A stretch of 64,000 nucleotides of DNA from Saccharibacillus brassicae (GTDB lineage Bacteria; Bacillota; Bacilli; Paenibacillales; Paenibacillaceae), in NCBI RefSeq assembly GCF_006542275.1, contig NZ_CP041217.1, forward strand, positions 5,334,501 through 5,398,500, read 5' to 3'. This document shows positions 22,052 through 29,052 of this stretch, piece after piece (within the stretch, counting starts at the first letter, position 1; each line of letters begins with the position of its first letter). Position numbers and translations under genes: made by a program. Below the pieces are notes generated by a model, which searched no databases, had not been told where the DNA came from, and was given only the letters and a program-made list of their open reading frames with translations.

Positions 22052-24250
22052 ATGAAATTCAAAGCTACCCTTTCCCCCCAGCAGGCAACTTACGCCACGC
22101 GGGGCGAACTCGAAGTCACCCGTACGCTGACCCCTCTCGATTCGTCGGAGGCGATCGCTTCCATCCTTACCGCCATCGATACCCATCGCGGCGCCCTGTT
22201 CACGAGCGGCTACGAATTTCCGGGCCGTTATTCGAGATGGGACGTCGGTTTTCTGAACCCGCCGATCGAGCTTCGCTCTTCGCGCGGTCTTTTTGAGATT
22301 CAGGCGCTTAACGAACGCGGCGACCTGCTGCTCGATTTCCTGCATCGCCACCTGTCCGCCGATCCGGTGTTCGAGCTTGGCCGCGACGGGCGGCTGATCT
22401 CCGGCTCCATTCTTCGCCAGGGCGACGAGGACGAGCGGCTCTCCGAAGAAGAACGGACCCGCCGCCCGTCGATCTTCACGCTGATTCGCAGCATCAAGGA
22501 AGCGCTGGAATCGCCGGAAGACTCCCAGCTCGGCTTGTACGGCGCTTTCGGCTACGATCTGGTGTTCCAGTTCGAACCGATGGAACTCAAGCACGAGCGG
22601 ACGCTGGAGCGTCCCGACGTCGTGCTCTACCTGCCGGACGAGATCGTCATTGTCGACCGCCAGCAGGATCAGGCGTACCGCCTGAGCTACGATTTCACGT
22701 CGGAAGGACGTTCGACGCACGGGCTTGACCATTCCACGCCGGTCACCCGCGCGCTGGCGGCAAGCCCGGCTCCCGAGCAGCTGCCGGCCTACGTGCCGGG
22801 ACGCTATGCGAGCCTCGTCGATACGGCGATCGAACAGTTCAAAGTCGGCAACCTGTTCGAGGTCGTGCCGACCCAGACGATCTACGAACCTTGCCCGGAC
22901 GCGCCGTCCGTCGTATTCGAACGGCTGAGCGCGATCAACCCGAGCCCGTACGGCTTTATCGTCAACCTCGGCAACGAGCATCTCGTCGGTTCTTCGCCGG
23001 AGATGTACGTTCGCGTCGAAGGCAAACGCATGGAGACCTGCCCGATCTCGGGCACGATCAAACGCGGCGCTTCGCCGATCGAAGACGCGGAGCAGATCCG
23101 CAAGCTGCTCAATTCGCGCAAAGACGAAGCCGAGCTCAATATGTGCACGGACGTTGACCGCAACGACAAATCCCGCGTCTGCGAACCGGGTTCGGTCAAT
23201 GTGATCGGGCACCGGCAGATCGAGACGTATTCGCATCTGTTCCATACGGTCGACCACGTGGAAGGCACGCTGCGCGAAGGTTCCGACGCCCTGGACGCGT
23301 TCATGACCCATATGTGGGCCGTCACCGTGACGGGCGCTCCCAAAAAGGCGGCGATCCGCTGGATCGAAGACCACGAAGATTCCCCGCGCGACTGGTACGG
23401 AGGCGCGGTCGGATTCTACAGTTTCGACGGCGGGCTGAACACGGGCCTTACGCTGCGCACGATCCGTATCCGCGAAGGCACGGCCGAGATCCGCGTAGGC
23501 GCGACGCTGCTGTACGACTCGATTCCCGCCGAGGAAGAAGAAGAGACGCTGACCAAAGGCGCGGCGCTCGTGAAAGCCGTTCGCGGCCTGCCTGCCGCTG
23601 CGGCGGCTTCCTCCCCTGCCGATTCCGACGCGGCGCCGGGCAAAGGCCGACGGCTCCTGTTCGTCGATCACGAAGATTCGTTCGTGCATACGCTCGCCGG
23701 CTACTTCAAGGAGACGGGAGCCGAAGTGCTCGTCCTGCGCACGCCGGCCGCGCTTCGCATCCTGCAGGAAGGCCGCGAAAGGTTCGACGCGCTCGTGTTG
23801 TCGCCCGGTCCGGGGCGGCCGGACGATTTCCGCATGCGGGAAGTGCTGGATCTTGCGGCGAAGCGCGAACTGCCGCTGTTCGGCGTCTGCCTCGGCCTGC
23901 AGGGCATCGTCGAATATTACGGCGGCAGCCTCGGCATCCTGGACGTTCCGCAGCACGGCAAGCCGGCGCTCGTCAGTACGTCGGCGGACTGCCCGCTGTT
24001 CGAAGGCATCTCCGACGCGTTCAAGGTCGGCCGCTACCACTCGCTGCATGCGGACAGCATGCCGGACTGCCTTGAAGTGACGGCGCGTTCGGAAGACGGC
24101 GTCGTTATGGGCATCCGTCACCGCGAACTGCCGGTGTACGCCGTGCAGTTCCATCCGGAGTCGCTGCTGACCGCCGGCGGCCGCATCGGACATCGGATCA
24201 TCGACAATTTCATGCGTCAGGTGAACTTGAGCGAATCGGCAGTCCGCTAA
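22052..24250 (+). CDS. trpE(G): Anthranilate synthase, fused TrpE and TrpG
   Basis: A 732-residue fusion. Residues about 1-510 are the chorismate-using TrpE part with LFEVVPTQTIYEP, GSSPEMYVRVEGKRMETCPI, GTIKRG and the LxLRTI stretch. After an Ala/Ser linker, residues about 530-725 are a class I glutamine amidotransferase: LSPGPGRPDD, nucleophile GVCLGLQG, and AVQFHPES with His and Glu of the triad. It turns chorismate and glutamine into anthranilate, the first step of tryptophan synthesis. AAGGAGG is 8 bases before the ATG. Length and order match TrpE(G) of rhizobia, Legionella and actinobacteria; a phenazine PhzE is shorter, and the tryptophan-type leader argues against it. No other trp gene is near. 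Confidence 0.9.
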   Translation: MKFKATLSPQQATYATRGELEVTRTLTPLDSSEAIASILTAIDTHRGALFTSGYEFPGRYSRWDVGFLNPPIELRSSRGLFEIQALNERGDLLLDFLHRHLSADPVFELGRDGRLISGSILRQGDEDERLSEEERTRRPSIFTLIRSIKEALESPEDSQLGLYGAFGYDLVFQFEPMELKHERTLERPDVVLYLPDEIVIVDRQQDQAYRLSYDFTSEGRSTHGLDHSTPVTRALAASPAPEQLPAYVPGRYASLVDTAIEQFKVGNLFEVVPTQTIYEPCPDAPSVVFERLSAINPSPYGFIVNLGNEHLVGSSPEMYVRVEGKRMETCPISGTIKRGASPIEDAEQIRKLLNSRKDEAELNMCTDVDRNDKSRVCEPGSVNVIGHRQIETYSHLFHTVDHVEGTLREGSDALDAFMTHMWAVTVTGAPKKAAIRWIEDHEDSPRDWYGGAVGFYSFDGGLNTGLTLRTIRIREGTAEIRVGATLLYDSIPAEEEEETLTKGAALVKAVRGLPAAAAASSPADSDAAPGKGRRLLFVDHEDSFVHTLAGYFKETGAEVLVLRTPAALRILQEGRERFDALVLSPGPGRPDDFRMREVLDLAAKRELPLFGVCLGLQGIVEYYGGSLGILDVPQHGKPALVSTSADCPLFEGISDAFKVGRYHSLHADSMPDCLEVTARSEDGVVMGIRHRELPVYAVQFHPESLLTAGGRIGHRIIDNFMRQVNLSESAVR

Positions 24251-24349
24251 AGCGGGCTTGGCCGTGGCCGGGCAGTCTGCATCGTTCGGCATTGCGAGCC
24301 TGCTATCTACGGCGATATTTGAAAAAAAAACGCAAAATCCGCAATCCAA

Positions 24350-24395
24350 AAAAACGTCCCGCCGCATTCCGAGGAATGCGGCGGGACGTTTTTGG
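24350..24395 (+). terminator. Very strong terminator after trpE(G)
   Basis: Perfect 21-bp arms (24350-24370 and 24373-24393) around a tight turn, with T5 downstream and A5 upstream; it can act in both directions. Confidence 0.92.
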
Positions 24396-24547
24396 GTTGC
24401 GGATCGAACGGATGCACCAAGTTGAGGCGGCGCGGTCAATCGGAAGTACGCAGAAGCTGATTGCCAATCAGCGCAACCGATCGAGCCGGGCGAGTAAGCG
24501 CCGAGCCTTCGGGGCCAAGCGCCGCAGCTTGTCTTCGGGTGTCGAAT

Positions 24548-25585
24548 TCAGGCTTTGGCCTGCTTGGACGAACCGCCGGCTTTGTTCTTTGGTTTGGCCG
24601 CTTTTTTCGCGGAAGCGGTCGTACCCGCTGTAACGGCTTGCGGCTTGCGCTGCCCCGGGGTCGACGCAGCAGACTTGGCCGGGGGATTCGTTTTGCCGGA
24701 TTTACCCGACTTGCCGGACCCGTGCGCGGCAGGCTGCTGCGGCTCGGCCGGTTTTTCTACAGCCGCCTGAGCCTGCATAGCCGAGATCGCCTCGGGGTTC
24801 GTCGGATACATTTTGCGGAACAGCAGCGTCTGGATCAGCAGGAACATGCCGCTGACCATCCAGTACAGCGGCATCGCCGCCGGAGCGCTGAACGAGAAGA
24901 ACAGCATCATGAGCGGCGAGATGTAGCCCATGATCGCCATCTGCTTGCGCTGCTCCGGCGTCATGCTGTACTGCGACACTCTCGCCTGCACCAGATACAA
25001 CGCCGCGACCAGAACCGCCATGATCCAGTCCGGCTGACCCAGCTTGAACCACCAGAACGAATGCGTGGACAGTTCCGGCGTCAGCCGAATCGCGGTGTAC
25101 AGTCCCGACAGGATCGGAAGCTGAATCAGGATCGGCAGGCAGCCGATATTCAGCGGGTTGAAGCTGTGCTTCTTATAGACTTCCATCATTTCCTGCTGCA
25201 TCAGTTTTTGCTGCTCGGCGTCTTTTTTGTTCTCGTACTTTTGCTTGAGCGCATCAAGATCCGGCTGCATCACGCCCATTTTGATCTTCATCTGCTGCTG
25301 CGCGCGTGCCTGCCGCATCATGAGCGGGAACAGCACCGTTCGCACGATCAGTGTAATCAAAATAATGCCGATTCCGTAGCTTCCGCCGAACCAGCCCGCC
25401 AAATGCTGAATCAGATACGAGATCGGAAACACGACGTAATGATTGAAAAATCCCGGGGTCGAACTCGTAATCTCCCCGTTCTGCGCGCCGCAGCCCGACA
25501 GCAGTACCATCAAGCCCAGCAGCACCGCTAAGCCGAAAAACCGTCCTCTTTTTGAACCGAAAATGAATCCTTTTGCCTGTTCCAT
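24548..25585 (-). CDS. yidC: Membrane protein insertase YidC (YidC2-like)
   Basis: A 345-residue lipoprotein-type YidC. The signal peptide ends in LLSGCGAQ. Five membrane segments follow, with the family elements GIGIILITLIVRTVLFPLMM (conserved Arg in helix 1), a charged cytosolic hairpin (KQKYENKKDAEQQKLMQQEM), NPLNIGCLPILIQLPIL and FSFSAPAAMPLYW. The last 75 residues are Lys/Pro/Ala-rich. It inserts proteins into the membrane. AAGGAGG is 6 bases before the ATG. It is not beside rpmH-rnpA, so it is probably the second copy (YidC2/YqjG type). Its start is overlapped by an upstream leader ORF, and the ribosome-binding site can be masked by a hairpin. Confidence 0.93.
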   Translation of the reverse strand: MEQAKGFIFGSKRGRFFGLAVLLGLMVLLSGCGAQNGEITSSTPGFFNHYVVFPISYLIQHLAGWFGGSYGIGIILITLIVRTVLFPLMMRQARAQQQMKIKMGVMQPDLDALKQKYENKKDAEQQKLMQQEMMEVYKKHSFNPLNIGCLPILIQLPILSGLYTAIRLTPELSTHSFWWFKLGQPDWIMAVLVAALYLVQARVSQYSMTPEQRKQMAIMGYISPLMMLFFSFSAPAAMPLYWMVSGMFLLIQTLLFRKMYPTNPEAISAMQAQAAVEKPAEPQQPAAHGSGKSGKSGKTNPPAKSAASTPGQRKPQAVTAGTTASAKKAAKPKNKAGGSSKQAKA

Positions 25586-25872
25586 ACTGCTCCTCCTTGT
25601 CGATTGTCCGAGACGTCATCGATAAGGAAAAAGCAGTCGCCACCGTCTTCATCGGGAGCTTCGCGGCGCCGGACCATCCGGCTCAGCCTTGAGGGCGATC
25701 CGCCCCCTCCGGGCGCCGGGATCGACACGAAATGAATACGGTGATCGTAATAACCGAAGTCGATCCAGGTTAACCGAAGTCCGCCGTACACAAACATCAG
25801 GTAAAAATACCTCAAGATCAGCAGCAGGCTGATCGAGAACAAATAGGGAAGCAGGTCTTGCAGATCAAGCAA
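25528..25872 (-). CDS. Candidate regulatory leader peptide upstream of yidC (MifM-like layout)
   Basis: A 114-residue frame starting at TTG 25872, which lies 7 bases after a perfect AAAGGAGGTGA site. A GTG inside that site is too close to be used. Residues 7-32 form one hydrophobic helix (LLPYLFSISLLLILRYFYLM). The later part has a basic stretch RLSRMVRRR (62-70) and then PDEDGGD (73-79). The frame runs on into yidC by 58 bases. The acidic codons lie directly before the 5' arm of a hairpin that covers the yidC ribosome-binding site. In B. subtilis mifM, an N-terminal helix, a basic arrest motif and DEED codons occupy similar places. No sequence homology is claimed. It could be a chance frame, but the start signals argue otherwise. 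Confidence 0.62.
   Translation of the reverse strand: MLDLQDLLPYLFSISLLLILRYFYLMFVYGGLRLTWIDFGYYDHRIHFVSIPAPGGGGSPSRLSRMVRRREAPDEDGGDCFFLIDDVSDNRQGGAVWNRQKDSFSVQKEDGFSA
25586..25637 (-). promoter_or_regulatory. Hairpin masking the yidC ribosome-binding site
   Basis: On the minus strand ACTGCTTTTTCCTT (25637-25624) can pair with AAGGAGGAGCAGT (25598-25586) with one bulge and three G-U pairs, and an inner TCGAT/ATCGA stem extends it. This locks the AAGGAGG of yidC into the stem. A ribosome paused in the leader ORF just upstream would open it. Confidence 0.62.
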
Positions 25873-25922
25873 AGGATTCACCTCCTTTCGCCGTTCAAAT
25901 CATTAAATCTTCAATTGTGAAT

Positions 25923-25951
25923 ATTATAACATCCTTGTGGGGAAAGGTAAA
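25923..25951 (-). promoter_or_regulatory. Probable promoter of the leader ORF-yidC unit
   Basis: On the minus strand TTTACC (25951-25946), a 17-base spacer and a perfect TATAAT (25928-25923) lie about 40 bp before the leader ORF. Confidence 0.65.
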
Positions 25952-26083
25952 CGGCAGCGGTCTAAACGGTTACTATTAGGCCGTTTTAATTTTAGGTTTT
26001 ATGAATCAAGAGAACAAGTTAGGATCTATTCACGTTTGGGTTTTTTTGGTATATTAAGGACATAAAAATAAAGGGGTGGTACT

Positions 26084-26509
26084 TTGAGAAATAAGTTTTT
26101 TGCTTTTTCGTTTCTCTTTATGTTTTTAAGTATGCTTGTTCTGAATCCGCAAGTACAAGCAGCCACAACGCAAAACCAAGCGGCAATCTATATCAATCCG
26201 GCGGACCTTGAAATCTATTCTTATGATGGACGTACCTTTTTAGGAACGTTATCTACGAATACTTATGATCCCGATTCTGTTTTTAACAAGTACGGTTTGT
26301 ATGGAAGCAAATATCGCATAGATAGCATTTGGAATCAATACGGATTATTTGGAAGTGATTACTCACTAACAAGTGCTTGGAATAAGTATACCGTTACTCC
26401 GCCGATCCTTGTCTATGACGGTGAAATTGTGGGATATGTATCAGCCAATAAATCTTTGTCATATGCCTTTCATCCAAATGTACTTTGGAAGTTGGCAAAG
26501 TCTTTTTAG
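26084..26509 (+). CDS. Small secreted protein with NxYG repeats, unknown function
   Basis: A 141-residue protein with a TTG start a few bases after GGGGTGG. A signal peptide is clear (hydrophobic core FAFSFLFMFLSMLVL, cleavage near VQAA at residues 25-28). The mature part has three related units between about residues 64 and 103: SVFNKYGLYGSKY, SIWNQYGLFGSDY and SAWNKYTVT. Then follow VYDGEIVGYVSANK and a short tail. The gene is clearly poorer in G+C than its surroundings, which suggests recent acquisition. It is flanked by its own terminator. No catalytic motif is visible. Confidence 0.75.
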   Translation: MRNKFFAFSFLFMFLSMLVLNPQVQAATTQNQAAIYINPADLEIYSYDGRTFLGTLSTNTYDPDSVFNKYGLYGSKYRIDSIWNQYGLFGSDYSLTSAWNKYTVTPPILVYDGEIVGYVSANKSLSYAFHPNVLWKLAKSF

Positions 26510-26519
26510 CTTTCAAAAA

Positions 26520-26562
26520 TAAAACAAGTCCATCACCGAAGGGGGAGGGCTTGTTTTTATTT
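26520..26562 (+). terminator. Terminator of the secreted-protein gene
   Basis: AAAACAAGTCC pairs with GGGCTTGTTTT (one G-U pair) and is followed by a T-rich tail, 12 bases after the stop codon. Confidence 0.8.
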
Positions 26563-26784
26563 TTATGTTTCATCCTTTTTTAAAAAGCAAAAAATTTAAC
26601 TTCTAAAATCTTGTGAATTTTTTAACATAAATATCTCTCGAAATCCTCACTCCTCCGCCCCAAACCACCCCAAATCCCGCTCTTTCCCTTTTGCCCTCTG
26701 CTTCAAGGTCAGATTTTTTAGGTAAGAGACAGTAAAGCATTTACAAAACTGACCAGCAAATCGACCAGGAAAGCAGGAAACATC

Positions 26785-29052
26785 ATGATGAGTTATCGAA
26801 AAAAACAACTCCTCGGTTTCGGGGTCATTCTATTTGCTCTGATGATTCTGCTGCTCATTCTGACTTTCATGCTCGACGGAGTCAAAAAAAATCTGGCCGA
26901 GATCATGGACGAGCGCTATGACAAAGTCAGCCGCGCCGTTACCTTCCGCAACAACTTCTCCGCGATTAACAGCGATCTCGGTTATCTTGTCTTCGAGACG
27001 GACCCCCTGCGCTCGGAAAATCACCTCATCGAAATCCGCAGCAAAAGCGAAGCGGCTTACGCCGACCTGACTTCCCTTCAAGCGCACAGCGGAGACAATT
27101 CCGGCGAAGAACTGCTTGCCGCGGTCCGGAACGGATTCGACCGCTACATGCTGATCGTGGACCGCGTGGCGGAAGCCCGGGCAGCCGGCAGCAACCTGGA
27201 CGCCGCTTCCTTATACGTGGAAAACGCGCAGAGTGTCCGGCTCAACCTGCTGCGAACGCTCAGCGAGTATACGGCCGTGCAGGAGAACAAGATGAATTGG
27301 ACCCGCATGGAAGCCGAACGGCAGTTTTCCCGCATGCTGACGGTCAGCGCGGTATCCGCGGCGGCTATCTTGTTGATCGGCATTTTGTCGGCCGTATGGG
27401 TCATTCGGGGCACAGGCCGCAATTTGAGAAGAATCACCGATGCCATGGACAAGTTCGATCCCGGCGCCATCGCACCCATTCCCCGACTGGAGGTCGACAG
27501 CAACGATGAAATCGGCAATATCGCTCGCGGTTACAACCACATGATCGACACCCTGGAAGACCATAATCGCAAAGTTCGGGAATTCAACCAGAAGATCGAA
27601 GAGAACCATTGGCTGCAGACGAAGCTCAGCGAATTGGCGCTGCTGTACCAGCAGGCCGAAGACAAAGATTCGCTGGCCCGGTTGTTCCTGTCTTCCGTCT
27701 CCCCCGCCGTTAACGCTTCTTCCGGCTTGTTCTACAGCCGCGACACGGACGGAAACGGCGAACGGTTCGTGCGGATCGCCGCTTATGCGACGGATCGTCC
27801 GGAAGGATCGAACGAAGCTTTCCTGCCCGGCGAAGGATTGATCGGGCAGGCGGCGCTCGACGGACGCGATATACTGATCGACGTGTCTCCCGAACATGAC
27901 GGCACGACGATCCTCGCCGGCGGCGGGACGTACCGTCCGCGCCAGATCTGGGTCATTCCGATCGAAGCGAACGACCGGGTCGAAGCGGTCGTGGAGCTGT
28001 CCACGCTGGTGCCGTTCACCGAACTGCATCGGCAGTTGATGGAGCAGCTGCGTTCCACGCTCGGCATCGCGCTCCAGAACGTGAACGGACGCATGGAAGT
28101 CGACCGTCTGCTGCAGGAGTCGCAGCTGCTGACCGAAGAGCTGCGCACGCAGCAAAAAGAACTGCGTTCCGTCAACGACCAGCTCAAGCAGCAGTATATC
28201 CAGGCGGACCGGAGCCGGATCGAACTGCTGGAAACGCAGCACGAGCTGGAGCTCAGCGCCGAAGAATTAAGGCGTTCGTCGCAGTATAAATCGGAATTTC
28301 TCGCCAATATGTCGCATGAACTGCGAACGCCGCTCAACAGCATCTTGATCCTCTCGCAGCTGATCGCGGAAAATGCCGAAGATACCGGGGACGAAGGCCG
28401 CAGCTACGCCGAAATCATCCATCGCTCGGGCCAGGATCTGCTGGAGATCGTCAACGACGTGTTGGATTTGTCCAAAGTCGAAGCGGGCATGCTGGACATC
28501 AACCCCGAGCCGGTCTCGCTGCACGATTTTCCCGAGCTGATCAATTACGGATTCGATACGATCGCCAAGCAGAAAAATCTGGAATTCGAAGTCCATGTGT
28601 CGGACAATTTGCCGGAAGCGTTCTATACCGACGGCAAGCGGATGCAGCAGATTATCAAAAACCTGCTCTCCAACGCGTTCAAATTCACGCAGTCCGGCAA
28701 AGTCTCCTGCAGCCTCGAAAAAGCGGATGCCGAAGCGCCTCCGTGCACGACCCCCGAAGGAGAAGCCGACCAGACCGCTATTGCGATCAAAGTGTCGGAC
28801 ACGGGCATCGGCATTCCCGAAGACAAGCGCGACATGATTTTCGAAGCTTTTCGCCAGGGCGACGGACGAACCGAGCGCATGTACGGCGGCACCGGACTCG
28901 GACTGTCGATCTGCCGGGAATTCGCCGGGCTGCTGGGCGGCTGCCTAACGGTCGAAAGCGAAGAAGGGCAAGGCAGTACCTTCACGCTGTACCTGCCTTC
29001 GATGCCGCCGGACCGCTTGTCTGCCGACGCCCAGACGGGCTTGCATCAATAA
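26785..29052 (+). CDS. Membrane sensor histidine kinase with HAMP and GAF domains
   Basis: A 755-residue kinase. A membrane helix at about residues 10-29, an extracytoplasmic helical sensor (about 30-185), a second helix (about 188-208), HAMP (about 210-262), a GAF domain (about 275-435), a coiled coil, then the HisKA domain with MSHELRTPLNS, and the ATPase domain with NLLSNAFKFT (N box), VSDTGIGIP (G1) and GGTGLGLSI (G2). All catalytic elements are present, so it should phosphorylate itself. It has no receiver domain at its end and no response regulator gene next to it, so its partner is unknown. The start is one of two adjacent ATGs after AGGAAA. Confidence 0.92.
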   Translation: MMSYRKKQLLGFGVILFALMILLLILTFMLDGVKKNLAEIMDERYDKVSRAVTFRNNFSAINSDLGYLVFETDPLRSENHLIEIRSKSEAAYADLTSLQAHSGDNSGEELLAAVRNGFDRYMLIVDRVAEARAAGSNLDAASLYVENAQSVRLNLLRTLSEYTAVQENKMNWTRMEAERQFSRMLTVSAVSAAAILLIGILSAVWVIRGTGRNLRRITDAMDKFDPGAIAPIPRLEVDSNDEIGNIARGYNHMIDTLEDHNRKVREFNQKIEENHWLQTKLSELALLYQQAEDKDSLARLFLSSVSPAVNASSGLFYSRDTDGNGERFVRIAAYATDRPEGSNEAFLPGEGLIGQAALDGRDILIDVSPEHDGTTILAGGGTYRPRQIWVIPIEANDRVEAVVELSTLVPFTELHRQLMEQLRSTLGIALQNVNGRMEVDRLLQESQLLTEELRTQQKELRSVNDQLKQQYIQADRSRIELLETQHELELSAEELRRSSQYKSEFLANMSHELRTPLNSILILSQLIAENAEDTGDEGRSYAEIIHRSGQDLLEIVNDVLDLSKVEAGMLDINPEPVSLHDFPELINYGFDTIAKQKNLEFEVHVSDNLPEAFYTDGKRMQQIIKNLLSNAFKFTQSGKVSCSLEKADAEAPPCTTPEGEADQTAIAIKVSDTGIGIPEDKRDMIFEAFRQGDGRTERMYGGTGLGLSICREFAGLLGGCLTVESEEGQGSTFTLYLPSMPPDRLSADAQTGLHQ

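Follow-up and report, generated by a model that had tools for sequence, protein, structure and literature searches.

A putative MifM-type arrest peptide encoded before a second yidC gene in Saccharibacillus brassicae and other Paenibacillaceae

The window considered here, that is, the whole stretch of DNA that was analysed, comprises 64,000 nucleotides of the Saccharibacillus brassicae genome (contig NZ_CP041217.1, positions 5,334,501 to 5,398,500). On its minus strand lies a yidC gene, preceded by a short upstream open reading frame (uORF). The parts of this locus, in window positions, are the following:

24548 to 25585, minus strand: yidC2 (60KD_IMP; PF02096, E = 1.3e-43), the second copy in the genome
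25528 to 25872, minus strand: uORF of 114 codons with a TTG start, coding for a MifM-like putative arrest peptide (genus and family matches; selection on the core)
25923 to 25951, minus strand: promoter-like sequence of the sigma-A type, TTTACC-17-TATAAT, its -10 element preceded by TG (pattern scan, 10 of 12 matches)
25878 to 25888, minus strand: Shine-Dalgarno sequence of the uORF, AAAGGAGGTGA (read from the sequence)
25786 to 25842, minus strand: hydrophobic N-terminal segment, residues about 11-29, with an acidic tail in front (hydropathy 1.91)
25633 to 25689, minus strand: putative arrest core, residues 62-80, RLSRMVRRREAPDEDGGDC (alignments)
25630 to 25641, minus strand: predicted stall codons 78-81, in the P-site (register with MifM 89-92)
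25586 to 25637, minus strand: predicted hairpin sequestering the yidC2 Shine-Dalgarno sequence (folds and covariation)
25592 to 25598, minus strand: Shine-Dalgarno sequence of yidC2, AAGGAGG, within the 3′ arm of the hairpin (sequence and fold)
25528 to 25585, minus strand: overlap of the uORF and yidC2, 58 nt in different frames (103 of 118 members overlap; stop depletion)

The Shine-Dalgarno sequence and the TTG start that the initial annotation had claimed for the uORF were both found on the minus strand (25888-25878 and 25872-25870), and the frame closes with a stop at 25528. The order given for the encoded protein also stands, namely one hydrophobic stretch, then RLSRMVRRR, then PDEDGGD, as does the run into yidC, which takes up the 58 nt of the overlap. 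GGAGGTG precedes the uORF start in 15 of the 16 loci of the genus. As for the promoter, the pattern scan found two promoter-like sites in the region against 1.1 in shuffles, and a TATAAT/TACAAT-like element stands at the matching position in the upstream sequences of loci L005, L008, and L011. Pfam has no family for the uORF protein, NCBIfam returned only chance matches for it (best E = 0.087), and a search of positions 24000-27000 with Rfam gave nothing above a gathering score. Two plus-strand genes lie farther along the window. The first (26084-26509) starts at TTG and codes for a small protein of 141 aa whose N-terminus resembles a signal sequence and in which NKYGLYGSKY / NQYGLFGSDY units recur, and there is no Pfam match for it; the second (26785-29052) codes for a sensor histidine kinase with 4HB_MCP, HAMP, GAF, HisKA, and HATPase domains.

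It had been proposed in the initial annotation that the uORF frame and the hairpin be looked for upstream of yidC in other Paenibacillaceae. The frame is kept there: it is present in 16 of the 16 genus genomes searched (E = 4.4e-16 or better), and the uORF profile matches 118 of 245 genomes of the family. Within the genus, the uORF overlaps yidC by 55-70 nt in the 15 readable loci, the 16th ending at its contig end. All 118 family loci that were fetched have yidC directly behind the uORF, 117 of them in the assigned frame and one (L141) in another frame, its start being mis-set. Kinship among these loci was reduced only by a cut at 72% identity, which left 65 that are non-redundant. The Paenibacillaceae-only profile (A2) was made from 60 of 61 chosen representatives, L062 being omitted and six members with truncated starts having been excluded beforehand, and the starts assigned to the 118 members include 15 CTG and 2 TAT codons, which are edges of matches and not proven starts. 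Inside the genus, the residue-changing share of codon differences is 0.37 in the core, against 0.83 in the linker and 0.90 just after the core. By this measure, the core L.R..[KR]R[KR]E[AS]PD[DE]D..DC is maintained as protein, while the linker and the tail are not, and the comparison of sequences indicates that the minus-strand frame before yidC is a real gene.

The genome that contains the window has two yidC genes, and the other one lies behind the genes for ribosomal protein L34 (PF00468) and the RNase P protein (PF00825), rpmH-rnpA. This is the usual position of the primary yidC, and the yidC of the window is consequently taken to be the second. The same association is seen more widely. 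Among 59 genomes of the family, yidC occurs in two copies in 41, in one copy in 17, and in none in a single genome that is 75% complete. The uORF profiles match 32 of the 41 two-copy genomes and 0 of the 17 one-copy genomes (Fisher p = 1.6e-8, kinship ignored). The 32 are made up of 29 found with profile A1, which was run on all 59 genomes, and three with A2, run on part of them; by A1 alone, the contrast is 29 of 41 against 0 of 17. Nine two-copy genomes have no match. A diverged uORF with the motif can be made out by eye in five of them (L266, L267, L269, L270, and L272), three have another transmembrane (TM) uORF before a distant yidC with 26-29% identity to that of the window, and in the remaining one (G024), both yidC copies adjoin rnpA. 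In one genus of the Paenibacillaceae (g8), a different TM uORF precedes a shorter, distant second yidC at loci L268, L271, and L273. Inspected by eye, these three uORFs have WIRRK[IM]PSR[KR]PRKK..DDE in common and also extend into yidC, and they may represent either a more strongly diverged form or an arrest peptide in its own right.

The protein that the uORF would encode has a hydrophobic stretch with a Kyte-Doolittle 19-mer mean of 1.91. Since the transmembrane call is based on hydropathy, it should be noted that this value is 1.6 or less in 27 of the 118 members. The N-terminal tail is net negative in 114 of 118. The net charge after the helix is 0 in the window protein, with a median of -1 across the members, so that the positive-inside rule does not point clearly to an N-out/C-in orientation. 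From the end of the TM segment to the proline of the core there are 44 residues in the window protein and a median of 48 in the 118 members (range 15-53, the shortest belonging to L080, whose start is truncated). The predicted stall site lies 5-8 residues beyond this proline, and the nearly constant spacer is MifM-like, the median distance from TM segment to arrest site in MifM being 54 (PMC10987492). The same source describes 631 yidC uORFs, 619 of them from Firmicutes, that clustered with MifM and from which the ones showing an acidic run between residues 70 and 100 were retained; the window protein has such a run in PDEDG at residues 73-77, with a mean charge of -0.6 over the five residues by hand count.

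In the core, several positions, here numbered as in MifM, are conserved among the 65 non-redundant members. Leu or Ile is found at position 74 and Arg at position 76 (60 of 65 each), Lys or Arg at position 79 (64 of 65), Arg at position 80 (63 of 65), and Lys or Arg at position 81 (65 of 65). The proline at position 84, which is Pro73 in the window, is present in 65 of 65, as is Asp or Glu at both 85 and 87, and a cysteine at position 91 (Cys80 of the window) in 54 of 65. Position 73 is Trp in 25 and Arg in 24 members, the window being among the latter. The cysteine is written TGC or TGT, and its codon falls outside the consensus helix of the RNA. Thus, the cysteine was probably selected as a residue and not for RNA pairing.

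MifM stalls with D89, A90, G91, and S92 in the P-site (PMC4423224). Mapped by register, these sites correspond to codons 78-81 of the window uORF, which would place Asp79-Cys80 at the predicted peptidyl-transferase position. A pause had been expected in the initial annotation near 25640-25655, and the MifM register puts the predicted stall codons slightly downstream, at 25641-25630. Met90 of ribosomal protein uL22 modulates MifM stalling (PMC4423224), and this residue, located by hand count, is retained in all seven sequences aligned, the eighth (G054) having been left out of the comparison.

The predicted hairpin pairs the yidC Shine-Dalgarno sequence (25598-25592) with codons 79-85 of the uORF. 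Together with its flanks, it has a folding energy of -23.6 kcal/mol (z = -2.6), and 2 of 200 shuffles were as good. The element is more stable than the mean of ten of its own mononucleotide shuffles in 118 of 118 loci, and at least five of the six bases of the yidC Shine-Dalgarno hexamer are paired in 105 of them. The distance from the proline codon to the yidC Shine-Dalgarno sequence is 58 nt in 69 of the 118 loci and 52-64 nt in 117.

Covariation was assessed in a set (A5) made up of the window and 48 others drawn from the 58 distinct sequences in which the spacing is 58 nt, the set omitting five near-duplicates and five of other register. RNAalifold called nine pairs in these 49 sequences, five of them with compensatory changes. 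Over 11 named pairs, 86.8% of the cells are paired, against 29-66% when the partner is slid, and the covariation score is 0.244, against 0.035-0.081 in the slid versions. There are 49 double-change cells, where shuffles give 16.7; two cruder counts, pairs showing a double change (6) and further pair types (15), do not rise above those of the slid versions (up to 7 and 17). Taken together, these comparisons indicate that the hairpin over the yidC Shine-Dalgarno sequence covaries and that its distance to the core hardly varies. The pairing of 25586-25637 with the yidC ribosome-binding site, as first proposed, is thus borne out by fold and covariation alike, and the hairpin is found in the relatives as well. 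One might suppose that the uORF encodes a free-standing small membrane protein that acts in trans and stands before yidC2 by chance, as it is a conserved small protein with a hydrophobic N-terminus that precedes an insertase gene. This is scarcely credible, because the linker and the tail are unconserved, and because the spacing from the core to the Shine-Dalgarno sequence and the covariation link the peptide to an RNA element in cis.

The uORF extends past the yidC start in 103 of the 118 loci, with an overlap of 31-200 nt, and stop codons are scarce along the way. Between the core and the yidC start, the uORF frame has stops at 10 of 1392 codons in the 65 non-redundant loci, against 5.2% expected from composition. 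Within the hairpin loop, there are 7 stops in this frame against 19.4 in nucleotide shuffles, and in nucleotides 3-33 of yidC, 4 stops in the 56 overlapping loci against 12.2 in synonymous shuffles, none of 200 being as low. Beyond nucleotide 33 of yidC, there is no stop depletion in the uORF frame. Depletion was judged by shuffles, the two other frames being no neutral controls. The third frame is also low in nucleotides 3-33 of yidC (17 stops against 26.1; 2 of 200 shuffles), so part of the depletion may be codon bias. Altogether, there is a moderate case, from these counts, for selected read-through of the uORF across the yidC start. In the hairpin loop of the 65 non-redundant loci, frame 1 has a twofold excess of stops (38 against 19.2 in shuffles), perhaps from GTTGA near the 5′ arm.

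These data also bear on whether a specific arrest has to be assumed, as a translated leader might regulate yidC2 only through ribosome traffic or translational coupling. The frequent overlap and the stop depletion across the yidC start agree with such coupling. Nevertheless, for mere coupling there would be no need of a core that comprises about 19 residues, is under selection as protein, and keeps a near-fixed distance to the hairpin, and only 1 of the 118 uORFs has its stop in the zone from -20 to +30 around the yidC start, in which restart after termination is expected to be most efficient. This gap is not universal, since outside the family three uORFs do end inside the zone (L303 at +25, L304 at -9, and L175 at -18). 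On balance, regulation by coupling with no sequence-specific arrest appears very unlikely.

The reading that we favor, with considerable confidence, is that the uORF encodes a leader peptide of yidC2 that works as an insertion sensor of the MifM type. We infer the membrane topology, the stalling, its relief when the helix is inserted, and the way in which yidC2 responds. In this scheme, the N-terminal helix would be a substrate of YidC. Its prompt insertion would exert a pull on the nascent chain that keeps the ribosome moving, the hairpin would re-form over the yidC2 Shine-Dalgarno sequence, and little YidC2 would be made. If insertase were short, the core (residues 62-80) would stall the ribosome when roughly codons 78-81 occupy the P-site. 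The stalled ribosome would then cover the 5′ arm of the hairpin, and the yidC2 Shine-Dalgarno sequence, by our estimate some 18-28 nt beyond the leading edge of the ribosome, would be left free, so that YidC2 could be translated.

The likeness to MifM (YqzJ), which precedes yidC2 (YqjG) in Bacillus subtilis, extends to several features. Both are uORFs before a secondary yidC with a hydrophobic N-terminus, a spacer of about 50 residues, and a core that is first basic and then acidic, and in both, a hairpin covers the yidC Shine-Dalgarno sequence at the same distance from the core, 54-57 nt in five mifM loci of the B. subtilis group. There are also differences. The window uORF enters yidC by 58 nt, whereas the five uORFs of the B. 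subtilis group end before the Shine-Dalgarno sequence, 27-33 nt before the yidC start. In addition, the MifM residues R69, I70, W73, I74, M80, and N81, which are essential (PMC4423224), correspond to G58, S59, R62, L63, R69, and R70. Thus, five of the six are absent from the window protein, with I74 to L63 as the only conservative change. Gly stands at two of the four DEED positions, and the protein has instead R-[KR]-E-[AS]-P-D-[DE]-D followed by a cysteine at the predicted P-site.

In view of such differences, it is reasonable to ask whether the two systems share descent. A direct profile comparison with the B. subtilis group gave an hhalign probability of 3%, which is not significant. The Paenibacillaceae profile by itself reaches the best MifM sequence at E = 0.63, and when Paenibacillaceae rows are joined to the intermediates, the best MifM score weakens to E = 0.21. 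An hhalign probability of 98% obtained with a mixed set was rejected as proof of homology, as that set includes recruits of the Paenibacillaceae profile and is partly circular. The link runs through intermediates. Profile A2 has matches in 50 of 398 genomes of the class, and outside the family, those with yidC directly behind are in groups f18, f42, f15, f34, f45, f52, f4, and f57, f15 also containing the five genomes with B. subtilis-type MifM. Some class-wide A2 matches at E = 0.002-0.01 are false, and since the noise level is near E = 0.003, only matches with yidC behind were counted. Four (L180-L183) were discarded as false, with no yidC on the fetched stretch, and L170 (f18) was not counted, as its yidC match is short (E = 2.4e-9) and no yidC start can be read.

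A profile with no Paenibacillaceae rows (A3) has matches in 25 of the 398 genomes. It finds four Paenibacillaceae uORFs (E = 0.001-0.003) and adds new yidC uORFs in f28 and f54; three of its matches (L305, L311, and L312) have no yidC beside them. Within the genus, it recovers the correct locus for 5 of 16 genomes, with E = 0.058 at best, and misses that of the window genome. A profile of nine intermediates only, with E-values computed at Z = 100000, reaches all five MifM sequences of the B. subtilis group (E = 1.4e-4, 1.8e-4, 0.0045, 0.0068, and 0.033). The best value belongs to one of the five, and L164, which is nearest to B. subtilis, has 0.0068. The same profile reaches Paenibacillaceae uORFs down to 3e-11, the window ORF itself having only 0.086. 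Through these intermediates, the core aligns with MifM W73-D89 without gaps.

The initial annotation had read the locus on the plan of mifM-yidC2, and the plan before a second yidC is well supported. It had also considered the sequence not alignable to MifM and perhaps independently evolved. Although the direct comparison is indeed not significant, the gapless register through the intermediates and the reach of their profile make an independent origin less likely. A sensor that arose separately and converged on the MifM plan would account for the lack of R69, I70, W73, M80, and N81 in the window core, for the weak direct comparison, and for the E of 0.086, and Sec/YidC arrest peptides are thought to emerge repeatedly (PMC10987492). 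Nevertheless, yidC uORFs with the same core and the same TM-spacer layout occur in ten other family groups of the Bacilli (f4, f15, f18, f28, f34, f42, f45, f52, f54, and f57), the intermediates connect to both ends, and Trp is retained at the MifM-73 position in 25 of 65 non-redundant Paenibacillaceae members. We therefore regard convergence as unlikely, though clearly less so than coupling or a protein acting in trans. The link to MifM is transitive and not strong, and descent shared with MifM through the intermediates, with the arrest core almost wholly replaced, is likely. Because the residues essential in MifM are absent from the window protein, it is not filed as MifM in the strict sense. 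It is better described as a probable MifM-type sensor in a Paenibacillaceae variant, the MifM-like working being held with more confidence than identity with MifM.

Overlapping uORFs are also found in f15 (g58), f42, f45, f18, and f28, so that the overlap with yidC may be old. At loci L171-L179, L303, and L304, which belong to several further families of the Bacilli, a MifM-like uORF precedes yidC, in some cases overlapping it and in others not. A more daring reading, which we put forward tentatively and consider rather doubtful, is that the MifM switch of the Paenibacillaceae was rebuilt in two ways, by new contacts of the core with a cysteine at the P-site and by a silencing overlap. The core would have acquired new tunnel contacts, R..[KR]R[KR]E[AS]PD[DE]D, ending in a conserved cysteine that is often Asp-Cys, and its stalling would be chemically unlike that of MifM, with a cysteine at the predicted peptidyl-transferase position. 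On the same tentative footing, the uORF would be maintained without stops across the hairpin, the Shine-Dalgarno sequence, and the start of yidC2; stalling would turn yidC2 on, and a released ribosome would sweep the yidC2 start and thus actively turn the gene off.

Three named arrest peptides are linked to yidC, namely MifM, ApcA, and CliM (PMC13183943). CliM (uC_KYxIW) of the Clostridia is likewise encoded by a yidC uORF, has a TM segment at its N-terminus, and is accompanied by a stem-loop that covers the yidC start; according to its authors, it shows no similarity to the other arrest peptides (PMC13183943). Neither the window protein nor the consensus of A1 or A2 contains its arrest motif, K-Y-x-I-W. 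ApcA of the Actinobacteria is also a yidC uORF, with one or more TM segments and a conserved C-terminal sequence, for which folding programs were reported to give no hairpin over the downstream Shine-Dalgarno sequence (PMC7897499). The RAPG-type motif attributed to it (PMC10987492) is not in the window protein, and the R-A-P-P/G motif of ApcA/RQH (RAPP-like) was not found, the A-P of the consensus occurring only as E-[AS]-P-D. In SecM and VemP, a stalled leader also opens a stem-loop over the Shine-Dalgarno sequence of the next gene (PMC10987492), but these peptides monitor Sec export, and their core sequences differ (PMC7897499). Paenibacillus is not named in the main texts of PMC10987492, PMC7897499, and PMC13183943, and the supplementary MifM list of PMC10987492 may include these ORFs. 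Among the papers searched, none pairs MifM with Paenibacillus or Saccharibacillus with yidC.

If the favored reading is true, sensors of the MifM kind would extend to the Paenibacillaceae, where they would accompany a second yidC. An arrest core would then be almost wholly replaceable while the hydrophobic segment, the spacing, and the hairpin persist. The cysteine at the predicted P-site and the stop-poor overlap offer precise predictions on how a nascent chain may stop the ribosome and on how its release may silence the target gene.
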